From Moniliella sp. 'wahieum' (Eukaryota > Basidiomycota > Moniliellomycetes > Moniliellales > Moniliellaceae), in the NCBI GenBank assembly GCA_003971905.1, contig RSEE01000087.1, positions 229,328 through 293,327 of the forward strand: a DNA stretch of 64,000 nt. The letters are read 5' to 3'. The first letter of the stretch is position 1; every line of letters begins with the position of its first letter. The notes under the pieces were generated by a model. It was not told the DNA's origin and searched no databases. It was given only the letters and a program-made list of their open reading frames with translations. The position numbers and the translations under genes are program-made. Below are positions 8,776-23,079 of this stretch, piece by piece.

Positions 8776-11700
8776 TTAGCTGCGCTCGATGCGCGCAATC
8801 AGTTCGGCCCGCTTGGCCGAATCGGAAAAGAGGGCACGGAGGAGCTGGGTGAGCTCAGCGGGAGCAAAGTCGCGCAACGCGCCCGCTTCGCCCCAGAGAA
8901 AGGCAATGTCGGCCAACGAGCCGGTAAGCACATCGGCCAAGTAGGTCGCCTTGAACCAGGTAGGCACAAACGGCGCGGCCACCGCCGACGCCCGTTCGTC
9001 CGTCACCCCGGCCGCCTCGGCTTGGGCCGCGTCGGCGGCCGCGCCCGCGTCCACGCCCAGCGCCGCCGCGGCCACCATGCGCCCCAGCGGGCGACGCAGC
9101 TGGGAACACAGCTGCTCCAAGCGCCGGCTCTCGTTGTCCGAGATGTCCTCCAGCGCTTCGATCTGGCCCACAACGCTGGCCAGCGCCAGGTTGGCCAGGC
9201 GGCCCAGCGCACGCGCCGTCGCGCTCGCCGGCACAACGCCTTGCCATGCACGTGCCAGCGACGCCAGTGTGCCCACCACCTGCGCCACCGCCTCTCCGCC
9301 GCTCCGAACCGATGCACATTCGCCAGCCCCAAAAAGCCCCCGGCCGAGAGCAAGCTGCGGGACACGAGGCCTTCTTGCACACGCTGTCATTCCATTCGCA
9401 CAGGGAGCGGAGGTGGTTAGTCAGTCCGCTCAGTCGCAACAAGAAGGACAGGATGAATCGATGAGTGGATGAGTCGGCGATCGCAACGTACCAATTGATG
9501 CTCAAAGCATTCGTGACCCATCATGCCCAGGCGCTCGGCTCGTTCGTGCAGCTCCTCCTGCACCGCCTCGCCCATGCGCATCGCAGCCGCTTGCACCCAC
9601 GCGGCCATCGTCGCACAGTCGTTGCGTACTGCCCGGCCAGCGCAGGCACACTGCTCGCCTCGGCCCCATACGTGGCGGGCAGCGTGGCAATGTACACGTC
9701 CACCGCGTCCACCACGCTGGCTTGCACTAGGGCGGGAAGCGAGCTGCCAGACGGCACGGATTCGTGCGCACCAGCCAGTTCCATAACCTCCTTCACTTCT
9801 TCCAGTCCTGCCAGCTCGGCGAGCTCGGCCAGGTCAAGCCCACCTCCCGCACCACTACCATCCGCCGCGGTAGCACGTTCGTACAGCGCAACCAGCTCCT
9901 CCAGCTGCGCCCGCACCGACTCGGTACGGACCGAGATCTGACACGCCTCTTCCGCCGGCAGCGCGGGTGCGAGCGGGGGTGGGCTGGGCGAGAGCGCACC
10001 TGCGACGATGATGGTATACCCGCCGTTGCCATTGACCCGTCACCCTCTTCGCCCCACCCCCACATATCCTCCTCTTCCGCGGCGGCGGCGGCAGGCGCGA
10101 CAGTCAACAACGGCACCCCTCTTTCACGTGCCTCAGTGGCAGCCGCAGAAGGGGCATGTGCTTCCGCCTCGGCACCCGCCGTTCGACTCAAGGCCGCATG
10201 CGCAAGGTCTGGGGGAGGGTGGGCGGGAGGCGCCACATGCGGTTGGTCCGCTGCGCGGGCGGGGCGAGACCCAAGGAGCGTGTCCACCTCGCCCTCCTCC
10301 TCCTTATCATTCTCGTCGTTGCTGTGCGCCCGCGAGGGAGAAGAGGAAAGGTCCCACGGATCCGAACTGCCTTCGCCGCTTGGGTACGGCGGCTCGGCCC
10401 CAGACCCTACCCCCGGCCCTTCTCCTCCACAACAGCAAGGGGAGCATCTGCCTCGGGCGGCGGCGGGTTGGCAGCGGGGGACGCGCTTGCATGGCGCACC
10501 TCCCGCCCTGACCCCGGCCGTACCGAAGGAGGCGATGCGTGCACAAAGGGGGAGGAATTGCGACTGAGCGCGTCCCACGAACTGCCAGACGTGCCCTCGC
10601 TCCCCTTGGGTGGGGGGGCAACAGCCGTGTGGTTGGCGTAGGAGTCTGAGCGACCCGGTGACTGGACACCCTCCTCCTGCTCTGCGTCCGGCGGTTGGGG
10701 GGCGCGGCAGGACTCGAAGCATCGTCATCCGCATCGAGATCCAGATCCCAGGCGTCTTCTGCCATCGCACTCGATTCAGGTCCGGCACGCGGTTCTTCTT
10801 CGTGCAACGTAAAGGACGCTTGTTCGGCTTGATCAGGTGCAGGCGCCGTCGGTCCAGGACTTGCCTCGAACCGCTCGGGTACCACGTCAGCTGCTGCCCC
10901 CATCGGGGCAGCATCAACGCTGGGCTCTCTCTCAGCGTGTAGTGGCGGTGAGCGTGTTTGGTTGGGTAGAGGTGGGTGCTGGAGATGAATAGGCCCAGTT
11001 TCAGGAAGCATGCTCGAGGGCGGCGAGGGTGCACCAACGAGCGGGGGGGACAAGTCCCACGCATTCGTGTCCTGCGGTTGAGGAAGGGGTTGAAGGTCAG
11101 GACTCGAACGCAAGTCGAGAGGCTGCCCTTCCTGGGTTCCCGCCAGCGGATCCGTCTCAAAGTCCCACTCGTCCGCTTGTGCGTCCTCATCCATCAGGGA
11201 GCTTTGGGCCGGGTTTGCCACAGCTGAGGGAGAAGAAGCAGGTGCAGGAGCAGGAGGAAGAGCAGAAACGGGGGCAGGTGCAGGAGCAGGAGCAAGAACA
11301 GGGGAGAGATCCCAACCATCCGTGTCGAGCTCAGCATCCGCCTGACTGACGACCGTATCCGAAACGCCGTGAAGCGGGGGTGTCCTCGTAGATGCTGTCA
11401 TGTCTGCAAATGACCGCGTTGGCAGATTGGTGTCAAATGTAGAGGCAGGCTCGGCTTCGTTAAGAAGAAGGCCAGCCTGAGTTTTGCCATCAGATCCTTG
11501 TGGAGGTAAGGGGGCCCAATCGTCTTCATGTTCGGTCGTGTTTTCTGAGAGCATTCCACAGTCAGTCTCAAGATGCACCACAAGGAAGTCCAAACGCACC
11601 CGTCAAGCGAGGTAGATCCACCCCTTCATGACCTGTATGTCCGTGCGGCTCTGTCAAGCCAGCGAAAGAAGGCTCCTGGTCGGCATGAGCATGAGAGGGA

Positions 11701-14700
11701 ATGGACGCAAGTATTTTGGGTGACAAGTCCCACCTCCTCGCCTGCCGTGTCCAGGGGCTGTCCTTCTTCGGTGCCAGCAGCCGGACCAGCCAGATGCTCA
11801 TCCGTGGCGGTGAAGGAGTGGATCTCGGTCTCGGGCACAAATACGCGGCCATTGTCCAGATCCAATGGCTGGCCCTCGTCTGTTCCGGCTTGGACATCAT
11901 CCCGAGGAAGGGCCTCAGGTGGAACGTCTTGAGAAAAGCCCCATCCATCATCACCTCCCACATCGAGGGGCTGCCCTTCCTCCGTCCCAGCGCCAAGATC
12001 AGTAACAAGACCCTCTCCAGCGACAAATGGCCTTGTCTCTGACACACCAGCATGGCCAACGTCCTTGCTGGGCAGCTGGATCGTCTCCGCTGCTCGACAG
12101 GGGTCGGGAGGGAGGGCCACTGGTGCTATCTCCGGCGAGAAGCCCCATCCGTCATCACCAGCCACGTTGGAGACGGCCCTTCTTCGGTCGCAACGCCAGA
12201 CGCGTGCAGCGCCTTGTCGTCGACCATGAAATCGGTTGGCAGAAATGCTTGGTCCATATTCATGTCCCGGAGCTGTTCCTCCTCTGCTCCTGCGTGCGCT
12301 TCGGTGGGGAGCAGGGGCGCGGGTGCCAGCGGCGGGGACAAATCCCACCCATCATCGCTGGCAATGTCGAGCGCCTTTTCTTCCGCTCCAGTACCAGAGA
12401 CGGGCAGAGGCGCATCGGCAGAAGGGGGTGAGAGCGGTGCTGTGGCAGGTCCCGCAGGCTCCAACAGCGTCGCCTCCTTCGTCGCGCCGGCTTCGCTGTG
12501 GCTGGGCAGATGCGGGGTAGCGGCCAGCACCGGCGACAAGTCCCACGCATCCTCTGCGTCAGCACCGACTTGCCGACTCTCTCTCCCTATCGGCACTGGG
12601 AACAGCTTCATCAGGCGCCGGGGCGGACGAAGCGCCAGGGGCAAAGGCAAGGCCAACATCCACATCCAGCGGTTGGCCTTCCTGGGTACCTGCTTGGGTG
12701 TCTAGAGCAAGATCCGCGGGGGCCATCTCGGGCGAAAATCCCCATCCATCGTCCTCAGCAGTATCAAGAACATGCGCCTGCTCCGTCCCAGCGTCGGGAG
12801 CTACCAATGGCACGCTCGCTGCGCCGAAGGACGGCAGATCATGCGGACCAACAGGCACATTCAGCGGTAGCCCCTCCTGCGTACCTGCCTCAGTGGGTAG
12901 AGGAAGAGGCGCAGGCGCCAGCTCGGGCGAGAAGTCCCATGCAGCATCGCCAGGGATGTCCTGAACTTTCTCTTCTCGGCCTCAACGCCGGAAGAGGCAA
13001 TGTGCTTGTTCTGGGCCGTCACGAGCTCAGGCTCAGGTGCCTCGGTCGGGTCCGCCTGGCCAACGTTCACGTTCACGTCCAGTGCTTGCCTCTCCTGCGT
13101 ACCTGCTTGCGAGGTCAGAGGAAGAGGCGCAGGTTCCAGCTCGGGCGAGAAACCCCATGCATCATCGCCCGTATCGTTTAGAGGCTGCTCCTGTTCGGCT
13201 GGAGTGCCTACCTGGGCCGCCTCGGTACCCGCGTGAGTGGGGAAAGCCAGGGGCGGAGACGCCGCCTTGGGCGACAAGTCCCACGCATCCTCCCCGTCCG
13301 TGTCGATATGCGCATCATCCCCCCTATGAGGTGGAGCAGACGACAGAGGCTCATCCTGCATGGCAAGGGTCTCCGGTTCCCGTTCCAAGACATGGCCTAC
13401 CTCCCCATTCTCCACATCCTCCACATCCAGCGGCTGGCCTTCCTGCGTACCCGCTCGCGTGTCGAGATCAAGAGGCGCCGATGCCAGGTCGGGCGACGCC
13501 CCCCATGCACCATGCTGATCCACGTTCAGAGGTTGACCTTCCCGGTCCCGGCGCCCGGGGGGAGAAGGAGAACGGGGGGGATGCGGTCGGGCCAGGCAAG
13601 GAATGCGCCTCATGGGGACCATGCTGATGCAGCGGTTGGCTTCCTCCGTACCTGCTCTGGCGAGAGGAAGAGGCGCAGGCGCCTCTTGGGGCGAAAAGTC
13701 CCATCCGTCGTCCTCGGTGATGTCTAGCGGCTGGCCTTCCTCCGTCCCTGGATGGGGGGGGCGGAAGGGACGTGCGCCGCCGAGGGTTGGGTCGTCAGAG
13801 GCGGCAAGACATGTGCCTCCTCAGCACCCGCGTCCACCACCTGCCCCGCATCCGTATCCACCAGCGTATCTGGCAATGGCGCCGGCGCCAGCTCAGGCGA
13901 AAGGTCCCATCCTTCGTCCTCAACAGGCAGAGACGAAGTGAGCGCCGGCGGCCCTTCGGTCGGCCCTGGCACAGTATCGCCGTCAGGGGTCTGGTGTGTC
14001 GAGAAGTCCCATCTCGTTGGGCCGGCGGGTTCCATCGGTTCGGATGTCCCATGCTCCGGCAGGCTCGCTTCCAAGGGTGGAGAAAGGGCGTTTTGCGTAG
14101 ACGCAGGCACTGGCGGGAGAAGCGCACTGGCCAGATCAGGGGCCGGAAGGGGCTCCCCTTGCTCCAGGTTGAGACCGGCCGGGTGGGTGGGAGGCAAGGC
14201 AGACGGCAGGGGCCCAGCGGCGTCGACGGCGGCTACCCCTCCGTCCGAAACTAACGAGCCCACCTCACCATCCTTCGCGCTCAGCGGTGCTTCCTCGTCG
14301 GGCACGGGCGCAACAGTGTCCGAGCCACGACGGACAGCCGCGTGACTGTCGATATCGACAGGATGGCCCTCCGCCGTGCCGTCATAGGAATCCAGAGCGT
14401 CATCCGACGGAAAGTCCCACCCTTGCGTGCCGTTGTCCCACCCGCCCAGCGCGGGGCCTGCCTGCGTGCCAGTGTCGTCGTGCCCAGCGGGGAGGGTGAG
14501 ATGCGCGTTGTGCGCAGCGGCAGACGACCGGGGTGGCTCCGGCATCGCGTTCTCCAAGAACGGTACGAGCGTAGCTGGCACGACCGAATCGTCCGTCGCA
14601 GCAGGGCGCGTAGGGGAAGAGAGGTCCCATCCGCCCGCCTCGCTTCCTTGGTCCGCCAGGGCAGACGGGGCCAGTGGCGGTGTAGAAAGAGCAGTAGAGG

Positions 14701-17700
14701 GCTGGACTAGCCCCTCGGGCGGGCGGGGGGTTCGGGCGCCCTCTTGATCGTCCGTGGTCAGAGGGGGGAGAGGCCAAGCTAGCTTGGTCAGCCAGCTGCG
14801 GGTTCACAACGAGCGTGTTGGCCGCTGTGGTCGGGGGGGAGGCCAGACCCAGACCAGGCCTAGCAGGACTGGGCGACCCGGCGTGGTCAGGAGATGCCAC
14901 GGCATCCATGCTGGCGACAGAGCCGGGGCGGGAAGTAGGCAAGGCAGTTTCCGAGGACAACGGCAGGACGGGCAAGGCTCGGGAAGACGGGGCAGCCGGG
15001 ATGGAGGGCGGAGGCGAAGAAGCTCGAGGCGCCGACGATGAGGGCAGCTCGAGATCCCATGCGCCATGCTGCAACGGCGATGGCGACGGAGGAGCCTCGT
15101 GCTTCCACCCACCCTGCTGAGATGGCGACGGCGTGACCAGCTCCAGCTCGTTAGCCGTCCGCGAGAAGCTTTCGTCAGCAGGAACAGGAGGCGTACGCAG
15201 ACGCTCGACCGGCTCTGGCGCAAGCACTGCCGCAGATGACTCCCCTGAGACATCCCACTCGTCCGCCGTGGTCGCAAGAGCGCCCGACGGAGTCGTAGAG
15301 GTTGGTACGCCGGCCTTCTCAGTCGCAGGCGGGGCGCGAAACAGCTGGCTCCTTCGGGCGGAACGTGTCGTCGCCCAAGTCCCAGGCATCCTCGCCAGGC
15401 GAACTATGATCAGCAGGCGCTGCAGATGCAGCAGGCGTCGCAGAACCAAGCGCATCCAACTCCTCGGCTCGCTCGCCTTGCCCAGGGGCTGGGGAAGGGG
15501 CGGTAGGCGGAGGCGGGGGCGAGGCAATGGGGGGCAAAGACACGACGCGCGTGGGAGCAGCACTCGCGCTCTCTGAGGGAACCAACTCTGGAGCCAAGTC
15601 CCAAGCGTCCCCTAACCCACGTTCTTCCCGGCGGTACCGACGCTTGTGACGACGTGCGCGACAGACTCGAGGTGGGCCGCGGGGGAGGGACATGTGGGAG
15701 CTCAGCGTCGCACTGGGCCGCCGCGGGGCCGATGAGGGGGATGCGCGGTGCGCTTGCGCGGCAGCGCGAGGCTAAAGGGGGAATAGGCCGGCGCGGGGAC
15801 AGGGCGAGCGCAGGTGCCTGCGGCGGGCTGGTGGCGGCCGAAGCGAGTCCTGCCCATGACGAGCCCGCCAGAGGGCCAGGGAGCGGCGGGGACGCCAAGG
15901 AAGGACTGGGCGCCGAGGCCAAGGCAGGGCTGTGCCCCAACGTAGACAGCGTGCTGGGCAACGGAGGAGGACTGGCCACCACCGGGCGCGGCGACGAGGG
16001 CAACGCGCTGGAGCCCAGATCGGACCCCAGCACGGGCACGGGCACCGGGCTGGGCGACGGGCGCAACGGAGGACTCCCGCCGCGCTGCCCGCAACGCTGC
16101 CCGCGACACTGCCCGACACGCTGCCGGCCATGCTGCCGCCCAAGCTGGTGCCAGCGAGGCCCAGGCCGGACCCAAGCGCGCGCGCGCCTGTGCCTGCGCC
16201 TGCACTCGCGCCGCGCCGAGGAGGAGCGGACTTGGCCCAGCCGCGAGGGCAGGGCGCGGCTGGACAGGGCGCTGGACGAGCGAACGGACGAGGCTTGGCC
16301 GGGACCGGAAGCGGAGGTTCTTCCAGCCCCCACGCATCTTCGTCCGAAGGGAACGGGCCCGAACCCAACTGGGCCTGCGCTGGGATTCGGCGCGCCGCCA
16401 GTTTTTCCGTCCTCCCCGCGCCATCCCCGTTCCGATGGAGTTGGATGGGGCCAGGCTCGCTGCCGGCGTCGGCGAGGCGCGGGAGACCATGCGTCCGCTA
16501 CGGGCAATGCCACCTGCTGCCGAAAGGGGCTGGGATCCTCCACGCCCGCAGGGTGGTGGGCTGAGCCAAGGGCGTTGCAAAATCTTGGTTGCTGCTCGTG
16601 TCAAACTCTGAGCCGGGGAGCGCCAGAGGCGGAGCACCGATCGATGCGTACACAGCCGTCGAAGTAGACAGCATTGAGGGACTGTCGCCCACCGATCCGG
16701 TGGCGCCCCAGGTACCTGGCCACTAGCGGCATCGCGCACACGGGCCACCTGGGCCGCCAGCACGGCTTTGCGCATGGCCGTGGGTGTGTCGCGGGCGGCG
16801 ATAAGGAGGCGTGCAAGCGTCGTGCGTGCCTCGGTCGCTTGCGCTTGGCCCTTGGCCATCAAGGGTTCCGACATTGACAAACGCTTCCATGCCTTGAGGA
16901 GTTGAAGTGCCTCCTCCCGGGCCACCGACGCTTCCTCGGCCGGGAGCGAGTGCAGGTCGATCGCGGCCAATTGAGCGCGGTGCCAGGCCAAGAGGACGTC
17001 GACAGTGCGCTTGCGCAACAACCGCACCTCCTCATCCTGGGGCGCAGGAAGGTCCTCCTGACTATGAGGTGAGCTCAGTGTTGCCGTTGCTACGGCCGCG
17101 ATCAGCTCAGTCACTCGGACCAGGGTTTCGGATGCGGGGCCCGGAGGCCAAGTCAAAGTCACGGCATAGCGAGATACGGCTTGGAGGTCCAAGCGAGGGT
17201 CCAGTGGGGGAGGCTCTAGGGCAACCCTTGTGGCAGGCGCAACCTGTTCGGCGGCATGCCAAGAGGTGTGAAGAGAACGTTCTCAAGGGTGGTCAGGAGG
17301 GCAGAGAACACAGTAGGGTGAAACGAAAGGAGCAACGGGACCAAGTCGGAGGTTAGATCAAGCGAATGCGCCGGGCCATCACGCAGAGCGGCAACCGAGA
17401 TGGACGAAGCCAAGGCCAAATGGACCGTAGTCGGCTTGGCTGGCTCGTTCGGCTCGGTTGACTCGGTGGTCACTTGGACCGCGCCATGCCAGGCAGCAAG
17501 CGTGAGCGCGCTTGCTTGCTCCATCACCTTGTCGGCGCGGGCGGCGATGGCATGGACAAAGCCAATGCCAGGAGAAGACAGGGCCCAGGCTTGCGGGCCT
17601 TGCGCCAGCTCCTGGACGGCCGCTTGGGCCTTGGGGCCGCTGACGCAGAGGACGTTGGAGAGGTCGCCACTGGCCCAGGCGAGCTCGGCTTGCTCCACCG

Positions 17701-18243
17701 CCTGAAGCGGCGCAACCAGCGCTTGACACAGCTCTGTCAGTGCCCGGAGGCGGGTGTGTTGGCCGACCAGACCGGTGTGACCGCGGCGGGGACAGAGATG
17801 GGCTGTGCAGAGCCAGCAAGTGCCAACACGACCAACCAAACAAACAAACAAACACGAGTCAGTAAGGGAAGGGCAGGGGCCAGTCTGGCCCGACCTAGAC
17901 GTACGTCGTGAGCAGCATCGATCGGCGCAAGCGAAGGAGCGGCGCGAAGACGGGCAAGGCGGGCGCGCAGCTCGTCGACCCGCGCAGGCAGGGAATCGGC
18001 GGTTTCAGCATGGTGGGTAAGCTGCTGGGCATGCTGGCGGAGATGGGCAAGGAGGCGGGTCTGGTGGGCATGGATCTGCGCATCGAGCAGGGTGGCCTTT
18101 GCGCTGGGCGGCAGCACGGGCAGGGCGGCGGCGGAGCCCGGCGTGGCGGAGGAAGCGGGCGCGGGCGGGGCAAGCGACACGCCGGCGTTGATGGCGACCA
18201 GCACCGAGCGGACATCCGTCGGCGGGCCAGCAGGGGCCGACAT
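8776..18243 (-). CDS. ZW10/Dsl1-family tethering subunit with a giant Trp-motif lasso
   Basis: This looks like a subunit of the Dsl1/NRZ complex, which tethers COPI vesicles at the ER. Exon 1 (18243-17905, 113 codons, MSAPAGPP start) carries helical heptads; its donor GTACGT starts at 17904 and the acceptor AG is at 17804-17803. Helical N-terminal sequence continues to about 16600. The middle (about 16500-10050) is disordered, acidic and Pro/Ala-rich, with about 31 Trp motifs. The C-terminal part (about 9950-8776) matches ZW10: QIEALEDIS, RLEQLCSQL, VPTWFKATYLADVLTGSLAD, then FAPAELTQLLRALFSDS near the stop. Total length is about 3,100 codons, several times the usual 700-900, nearly all of the excess in the middle. 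The frame changes about a dozen times, but WD(F/L)SP motifs reappear in the frame that is open next, so I treat it as one gene with assembly indels. Mitotic ZW10 functions are not implied. Confidence 0.82.
10054..16489 (-). repeat. Array of about 31 Trp-acidic motifs in the ZW10/Dsl1 lasso
   Basis: The typical motif is acidic-(D/E)(G/A)W(D/G)(F/L)SPE, often followed by LAPAPLP and a linker ending GT(Q/E)EGQPLD. Trp codons (minus strand) fall near 16488, 16331, 15601, 15383, 15256, 15106, 15058, 14628, 14439, 14418, 14010, 13908, 13701, 13504, 13281, 13156, 12938, 12743, 12544, 12346, 12145, 11942, 11731, 11517, 11313, 11166, 11058, 10749, 10575 and 10355. The last element is a WGW pair at 10054-10062 in a setting EEEDMWGWGEE. 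From 13.9 to 11.3 kb the spacing is close to 200 bp (about 66 codons). Yeast Dsl1 binds the coatomer subunits alpha- and delta-COP through Trp motifs in an acidic central loop; the multivalent role here is inferred. Confidence 0.85.
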
Positions 18244-18743: not shown

Positions 18744-19165
18744 CTACGAGTCGACGTCGACGCCTCGTTGGCGGAGGTAGTCCTTGGCCTCTTTGATTTC
18801 CTGCACAACGGGGCTGCCCGTGTTAGCCCAGCACCGCACACCGCCAGCACCGCCGCTGCCGCCGCCAACGACGCGACTGGGGACGGGGGAGGGAGCCAGC
18901 GGACAAAGGAGAGCAAGAGCAAGCAACGTACGACCAGCAGTTCTTCGTATGCCTTGGGCGTGTCGTTGAAGTAGTACAGGCCCTTGCCCAGCTCGTACAT
19001 CAGGTGGCAGCCCACCGCAATCAGCGCCCACCACGGCAGCGCGGCCAGCACAGCGTCCGCCGTGGCCTGCGGCACGAGCGGGACGGGGAGGAGGTGGAGC
19101 CAGAAGACGAGGTATGCGCTGGCGACGAGCGCCAGCTTGGTGGCAAAGCGGGTGGCGCGGGTCAT
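18744..19165 (-). CDS. DPM3: Dolichol-phosphate mannosyltransferase subunit 3
   Basis: DPM3 anchors the catalytic Dpm1 subunit in the ER membrane so that dolichol-phosphate-mannose can be made for N-glycans, O-mannosylation and GPI anchors. Exon 1 (19165-18932) encodes 78 residues from MTRATRFATKLALV; exon 2 (18800-18744) encodes EIKEAKDYLRQRGVDVDS and the stop. The 131-nt intron (18931-18801) has a GTACGT donor and CAG acceptor and joins in phase 0. The 96-residue product has two hydrophobic segments (about 8-28 and 42-60), the conserved ELGKGLYYFNDTPKAYEEL stretch, and the C-terminal amphipathic EIKEAKDYLR helix that binds Dpm1. The length matches the family and the frame is intact, which makes this one of the cleanest genes in the window. 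Confidence 0.95.
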
Positions 19166-22300: not shown

Positions 22301-23079
22301 AGTTGACAATACAGGAAGAGTGTGACATGTTGACGCCAAACTTCCAGCTGCGGCCTTGCGCTTGGGTCTCGATCGCTCGGGACGTGGCAGAGGATACCCC
22401 CTCGACCAGCGGCATGTCGTCGGGGGAGGCGGGCGATGCCGAGGAGGAAGAGGCAAAAGGTTCTGTCCCGCGTGCGGTAGGTCGGGACACTGGTTCCGAG
22501 ACGAGGGAGGCGGAGGCGGGTTGCCAGGGGCTGCCGGCCACGGGGTCGCCCGAGGGAACAACCGAGGGCGCTTGGGTCGGCGGAGGACTGTCGCGATTGC
22601 GCTTGCGGCGGCGCTTGCCAGGAGGCGGGTTATGAGAGCGGTCGAGGATGCGGGAAATAAGACCTTCAAGCCGCTTGGCATGTTCGTAAATGTCCACATC
22701 AAAGTCCTCGCACGGGCGGCAGGCGTCGGGGATGCCGCGCTCGACGCAGGACGAACACGGCATCTGCCGGTCACATTTGGCGCGGCGGCGGTGGCACTCG
22801 GAGCAGCTGTAGCGCACACGCTTGCGGCGGCGGCGTTGGCCAATGAGTCCAAGCGCCTCGTCGACCAGGTCGTCGTCCAGCTCCAGCTCCACGCCGCCGC
22901 CGACCGAGGCCTTCATCTTTTTGCGGGGGGCAGGGTCGGAGCGGCGGGGGCTGGGCGCGCAGCAGGCGCCGTGGCGGGGGCGGGGAGGCGGAGGTGGAGC
23001 CCCGGGTGCTCGAGGCCGGAGGAGGGGCAGGCTGGGCACGCGCCGGGGCGGAGGCGCTGTTGGCAGAGGCGCGCACCAT
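19371..23079 (-). CDS. Zn2Cys6 transcription factor with fungal TF middle domain
   Basis: A nuclear binuclear-zinc-cluster regulator. The proposed start (23079, MVRASANSA) leads through a Pro/Ser-rich segment, with a frame change near the G and T runs at about 22920. The zinc cluster has the spacing CSECHRRRAKC, then PCSSC and a final Cys in GIPDAC: six Cys with a basic core. A basic linker KRRRKRNR follows. The fungal-specific TF domain is recognisable from LITLYFDHINNTVFPID through FYLGSAIRTAYMNKLNI, EQRRRIWSHLFYMDR and LACHRYLLNMEFAFVRI. A 158-nt intron (21033-20876) has a GTACGC donor. The C-terminal part is Pro/Ala-rich and ends WATLISMLAPYAVEDMVPP, with the stop at 19371-19373. Target genes and effector are unknown. 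Confidence 0.88.

Follow-up and report, generated by a model that had tools for sequence, protein, structure and literature searches.

Yeast Dsl1 carries a lasso, a short region with few tryptophan (Trp) motifs that lies between the N- and C-terminal halves of the protein. Dsl1 is a tether for coat protein complex I (COPI) vesicles travelling from the Golgi to the endoplasmic reticulum (ER), and combines a ZW10/Dsl1-type C-terminal part with an unstructured, acidic, Trp-bearing region (PMC4868844; PMC4206994). The yeast complex has a height of about 20 nm, with the lasso at its tip (PMC4868844; PMC4206994), and the lasso binds delta- and alpha-COP through its Trp-containing motifs (PMC4868844; PMC7145657). 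Metazoan ZW10, which is found in the NRZ and RZZ complexes, is reported to be without an acidic COPI-binding region (PMC4206994; PMC4868844), a review describes Dsl1 homologues as having no lasso in aquatic fungi, in plants, or in metazoans (PMC4868844), and how ZW10 tethers while lacking the acidic region has been raised as a question (PMC4206994). Here, we describe a 64,000-nucleotide stretch of contig RSEE01000087.1 of Moniliella sp. 'wahieum' (the window), in which a single gene on the minus strand, running from about position 18243 to 8776, encodes an N-terminal part, a low-complexity array of about 2,200 amino acids (aa) with 34 Trp residues, and a C-terminal part of the ZW10 type. Our analysis gives an even chance to the reading that its product is a ZW10/Dsl1-type ER tether subunit with a giant multivalent lasso, probably binding COPI and doing so mainly through a single-Trp motif.

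Known ligands of delta-COP, such as Gcs1, insect FAM114A, and the ELM class LIG_deltaCOP1_diTrp_1, share an acidic Trp motif with this array and follow the published consensus W-x(1-6)-[W/F] (PMC11441981). Delta-COP peptides with a Trp motif are reported to have low-micromolar affinities (PMC6737914), a range in which avidity would matter. A likeness in working, not in kinship, is offered by Eps15, in which fifteen DPF motifs in one region serve mu-homology domains (PMC4731787); that protein is endocytic, unrelated, and has about half as many motifs. A tether of this type, its lasso, and the principle of acidic Trp motifs are already known. The literature covered by the searches, which is not complete, shows no tether with so large an array, in agreement with a first-pass annotation of the window that knew of no described tether with such a motif count. 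Nor does that literature describe the scale, the form of the motif, or its combination with an animal-like ZW10 C-terminal part.

A ZW10-type C-terminal part and an array of Trp motifs

The C-terminal part (8776..10017, minus strand, stop codon at 8778-8776) bears out the ZW10 C-terminal domain proposed in the first-pass annotation. PF22766 (ZW10_C2) matched window positions 8776-9420 (E 9.9e-22), and a profile of this part (A5) matched residues 481-689 of human ZW10 (7qpg_W, E 3.9e-21), with a weaker second stretch at 715-778. None of the Dsl1 chains was matched by the profile up to E 10. PF20666 (ZW10_C) was detected in the C-terminal part of a related protein, P0002 (E 4e-4), and not in that of the window gene. 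The same genome contains matches to RINT1/Tip20 (PF04437, E 8.9e-19), to Sec39 (PF08314, E 2e-6, which is above the cut-off, in one stretch near the end of the model), and to the delta-COP mu-homology domain (E 1e-14 to 4o8q). It also holds at least 100 Zn2Cys6 matches (150 of 164 candidates scored), which supports the fungal host that had been claimed earlier.

P0002, an independent relative of 2,932 aa, was the sole match among 8,000 scored candidates when the final 501 residues of a piece 1,900 aa long served as query (E 2.2e-30; 39% of the query aligned, at 42% identity). The whole N-terminal parts of the two proteins are 43% identical. The array of P0002 spans 2,373 aa and contains 31 Trp residues, beside the 34 of the window gene. 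Both ends of the arrays align (GSGPFPS...DDAWGL[DE]EP-like, SSDPWDLS, and WGWGEEGD); the middle allows no position-by-position alignment, and the motif is nevertheless kept there.

The array itself (10018..16673, minus strand) has 29 of its 34 Trp residues in the form W[DNG] and 24 in the form W[DNGE][LFV] after hand adjustment of the joins. The automatic frame path gave 33 Trp residues and 22 W[DNGE][LFV], and a second copy of the gene (copy B, see below) gave 32 and 19. The count of 24 compares with a mean of 1.2 and a maximum of 6 in 500 shuffles, and the 14 such sites of P0002 compare with a mean of 0.9 and a maximum of 4. The longer form W[DNG][LF]S(S)P has 13 copies in the window array and 7 in that of P0002, with a shuffle mean of 0.01 in each. 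Copies of the strict pattern W[DGNE][LFV]S[PQ] number 13 in the minus frames, where they are distributed over all three (3, 4, and 6), and 0 in the plus frames. An earlier count of about 31 motifs of the form acidic-(G/A)-W-(D/G)-(F/L)-S-P is thus loose, because the strict pattern has only 13 copies.

The surroundings of the Trp residues are acidic as well. An acidic residue at most 3 places before Trp yields 39 overlapping matches here (shuffle maximum 27) and 31 in P0002 (25), at least 2 acidic residues in the preceding five occur 18 times (shuffle maximum 14), and position -2 is acidic at 20 of 34 Trp residues here and at 13 of 31 in P0002. Core Trp residues are regularly spaced, with 12 of 13 successive gaps measuring 65-74 aa, and the median length of all Trp gaps is 66 aa for the window array and 69 aa for that of P0002. 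A repeat unit profile made from 15 of its own copies aligns the units as one repeat family. At the DNA level, the serine codons of 15 copies of W[DG][LF]S[PQS] are TCG (8), TCC (4), TCT (2), and TCA (1). When the whole genome was scanned with a single DNA version of the motif, which takes only TCN serines, 14 of 14 matches fell inside the two arrays (reversed-pattern control: 2). A long-period DNA tandem repeat was also considered and none was found: Tandem Repeats Finder reported no period above 30 in the gene.

With 15.3% proline, 15.0% alanine, 9.7% serine, 14.8% aspartate plus glutamate, and 0.2% tyrosine, the array is, to judge from its composition, apparently disordered and floppy. By composition and position, it is an acidic Trp-bearing region between an N- and a C-terminal half, as is the Dsl1 lasso; unlike that of yeast, it extends over about 2,200 aa, has 34 Trp residues, and uses a motif that is mostly single-Trp. 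It closes with the di-Trp motif EEEDMWGWGEE (10045..10077, minus strand), the counterpart of which in P0002 is DADETWGWGEE. Strand, coordinates, the long stretch of proline, alanine, serine, and acidic residues, and this final pair are all as first annotated. A second element, GTEEGQPLD and its variants, alternates with the Trp motif: [GS]Q[PR][LF] occurs 8 times here (shuffle maximum 3) and twice in P0002, which is inside the shuffle range.

A second syntenic copy and the frame breaks

The genome assembly (69.5 Mb in 223 contigs) holds the window gene (copy A) on contig C87 and copy B on contig C86, with 95% DNA identity between them. Because the flanks match too, across 5.1 kb at 94% and across 9.0 kb at 92%, sequence comparison marks the two copies as allelic or homeologous. 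Beside both copies lies a Zn2Cys6 match, at 22716-22811 on the minus strand of the window (C87:252043-252138) and at C86:56549-56644; its corresponding positions agree with the synteny of the two contigs.

The copies differ by 107 indels across the gene, 91 of which are 1-2 nucleotides (nt) long. Of the 98 non-triplet indels, 74 are gaps of copy B and 24 are gaps of copy A. The reading of copy A was built from a codon-usage path with penalised frame changes, and the joins at introns and at two repeat copies were placed by hand, following the repeat. The gene has a length of about 3,070 codons; the assembled reading comprises 3,088 letters, junction X's counted, and 2,229 of these, including about 15 junction X's, form the array. 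By the open reading frame listing and by reading of the sequence, the coding pieces are spread over all three minus frames. The path contains 25 frame changes, 6 of which were attributed to introns or ends (analyst's assignment), leaving 19 others. The long stretch is not a single open frame in this assembly, and the frame of the gene is broken about 19 times. Sixteen of these 19 lie at most 20 nt from a non-triplet indel relative to copy B (random mean 7.0; 0 of 5,000 draws reached 16), and for this reason the breaks look like consensus errors; noise of the assembly is the simplest account. The C86/C87 region as a whole, with its two copies at about 92-95% identity and many 1-2 nt indels, is one in which gene models would be broken.

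Two other ways of reading the locus were rejected because P0002 is open across the array. One is intron-rich, with AG|GT in each repeat, and is ruled out by the unbroken passage of P0002 through its array. The other assigns the two ends to separate genes; as P0002 reads the N-terminal part, the array, and the start of the C-terminal part in one frame, the sequences argue strongly against it, and the claim of one gene holds.

When codons near indels are left out, the ratio of nonsynonymous to synonymous change per site (pN/pS) between the copies is 0.35 in the N-terminal part (15 nonsynonymous and 16 synonymous changes), 0.32 in the array within four residues of Trp (13 and 11), 0.49 in the rest of the array (94 and 72), and 0.19 in the C-terminal part (5 and 10). 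Over the whole gene, Trp is kept in copy B at 42 of 44 aligned Trp codons. Of the two exceptions, one arises where a 2-nt deletion shifts the alignment, and at the other copy B reads Phe.

Proposed coatomer binding and rival explanations

If the gene product is a COPI-binding tether subunit, the lasso between its N- and C-terminal halves would have been expanded to an arm of about 2,200 residues, bearing some thirty single-Trp acidic motifs (approximately [DE]x-W-[DNG]-[LF]-S-(S)-P), together with a single di-Trp motif of canonical form, WGWGEE. The N-terminal part, by its position and its size of about 470 aa, which comes near that of human ZW10 ahead of residue 481, would form the half of the tether rod. 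The complex would stand on the ER, its arm reaching through a large volume, and avidity would result from numerous weak contacts between Trp residues and the coatomer subunits of one vesicle, with the terminal WGW contacting delta-COP and the WD[LF]SP motifs contacting delta-COP or alpha-COP. The COPI-capturing array of the first-pass annotation is supported in this respect by the ZW10-type C-terminal part, by the lasso position, and by a non-chance Trp motif kept in P0002, and is not supported by the general delta-COP consensus. Also in favour of the coatomer reading are the Trp codons kept in copy B, the pN/pS values between the copies, the confinement of the scanned DNA form to the two arrays, and the matches to RINT1/Tip20, Sec39, and the delta-COP mu-homology domain in the genome. 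WGWGEE conforms to the consensus, stands among acidic residues in both species, and is the only aligned site that fits in both. Over the window array, Wx(1-6)[WF] occurs at 12 sites, about twice chance (shuffle mean 5.5, maximum 12). A further step, in which about thirty new single-Trp coatomer motifs engage many coatomers on one or several vesicles and gather COPI carriers at the ER, has, in our estimate, distinctly less than an even chance; it would join a polyvalent coat trap to a C-terminal part that resembles animal ZW10 more than it does yeast Dsl1.

A number of results weigh against a COPI-binding tether. The part first annotated as ZW10-like at the N-terminus is not detectable as such by sequence, as it has no Pfam match above cut-off, no PDB match, and a probability of 0.2% in hhalign; its best Pfam match, COG5_N (E 0.0046), is below its own cut-off and comes from a reading that passes through intron 1. 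Zw10_middle gave no match in the genome, and neither did Nbas_N and Zwilch, in each case with no control matching, so that no conclusion is drawn from these negatives. IFT57 also gave no match, with no eukaryote control matching, which says nothing for or against flagella. Only two relatives were found with 8,000 candidates scored per protein search, and no further orthologue appeared among 8,000 candidates scored with a permuted three-sequence alignment. The second relative, ZW10 of Coemansia reversa (P0001), is the nearest named one among the candidates scored (E 6.6e-5, 28% identity), is 795 aa long, and has no array. The difference in pN/pS between motif and spacer rests on few changes (13 plus 11 against 94 plus 72), and at least 2 acidic residues in the five before Trp occur 13 times in P0002, which equals the shuffle maximum of 13. 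The unit profile gave E below 0.003 for 5 of 11 listed stretches of P0002 (best 1.5e-5; best among the 17 shuffles shown, of 20 searched, 0.0092), and scores the whole sequence no better than shuffles, so that the units appear to share at most weak kinship with those of P0002. Finally, a second aromatic residue 1-6 positions after Trp is not a feature of the array as a whole, and Wx(1-6)[WF] in P0002 is at chance, with 5 sites against a shuffle mean of 4.5 and a maximum of 10. The earlier proposal that all motifs bind the delta-COP mu-homology domain is therefore not supported as stated, and since the rule is not generally followed, the coatomer reading is given no more than an even chance, with binding to another partner as its main rival.

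Under that alternative, which we think unlikely, though only somewhat, the acidic SP motif with its single Trp serves a non-coatomer partner as a site of docking and phosphorylation, and only the terminal WGW serves COPI. The partner could be the appendage of a different coat or adaptor, a scaffold of the ER or Golgi, or a mitotic protein. Unlike in the delta-COP ligand class, Trp is followed in most copies by Leu or some other residue and not by Trp or Phe (position +2 is Leu at 14 of 34 and Phe at 9 of 34 here, and Leu at 13 of 31 in P0002), and this, together with the chance level of the consensus in P0002 and the recurrence of W[DNG][LF]S(S)P in both proteins, speaks for a different partner. 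However, the array occupies the position of the COPI-binding lasso of Dsl1, and the known COPI ligands share its acidic Trp setting. We know of no other partner for exactly a WD[LF]SP-type motif.

The array could also have expanded for the most part passively, as a spacer made of diverged tandem units of about 67 aa, with Trp kept through recent common descent and not through binding. Its regular core units align as one family and its spacers diverge quickly, as such an expansion would have it, but the absence of a long repeat period, the differing synonymous codons of the fifteen copies, and a P0002 middle that is unalignable by position and yet retains 31 Trp residues and 14 W[DNGE][LFV] make this explanation quite improbable. 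Least credible is an artefact, in which the apparent giant protein comes from a pair of genes, a pseudogene, or a fault of the assembly. The array does call for many frame changes (copy A 15, copy B 39); against this, the small indels between the copies are as expected of a noisy assembly, the 2,932 codons of P0002 form a single open reading that covers all junctions except the last exon, and pN/pS is below 1 in every part, and we give an artefact very little weight.

The array bears on the origin of coat-tether contacts. The insertion point of the lasso tolerates some thirty motifs, which are kept in at least two genomes, and so large a Trp lasso on a ZW10-type protein, in a fungus of a little-sampled kind, makes valency a natural variable. 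A search for a local delta-COP ligand among ArfGAP proteins gave 12 matches, and none of the 10 loci inspected was clearly ArfGAP1/Gcs1-like by the analyst's reading. Two ArfGAP-domain loci, L039 (C9) and L040 (C6), which read as ArfGAP2/3-like to the analyst, have downstream open readings with EDEWHS[VT]DNGWSNGD, an acidic di-Trp stretch that is another candidate coat-binding motif.

Exons, introns, and the upstream gene

All remaining features of the gene are on the minus strand. Exon 1 (17905..18243) encodes the first piece of the N-terminal part, from an ATG at 18243-18241 that is the presumed start codon, and is open up to a GTACGT donor at 17904. Probable intron 1 (17803..17904) starts with this donor and has a candidate acceptor, CACAG, ending at 17803, which is out of phase in this assembly; the start of P0002 falls near this intron. 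The remaining N-terminal part follows at 16674..17802. Within the C-terminal part, sequence reading places intron 2, like intron 1 a short one read as GT-AG, at 9384..9491 (GTACGT...CTAAC...ACAG, 108 nt, phase 0), and P0002 ends three codons beyond the point of its donor. Immediately upstream of the gene, on the same strand (18935-19165), lies a gene for DPM3, subunit 3 of dolichol-phosphate mannosyltransferase (PF08285, E 4.1e-16).

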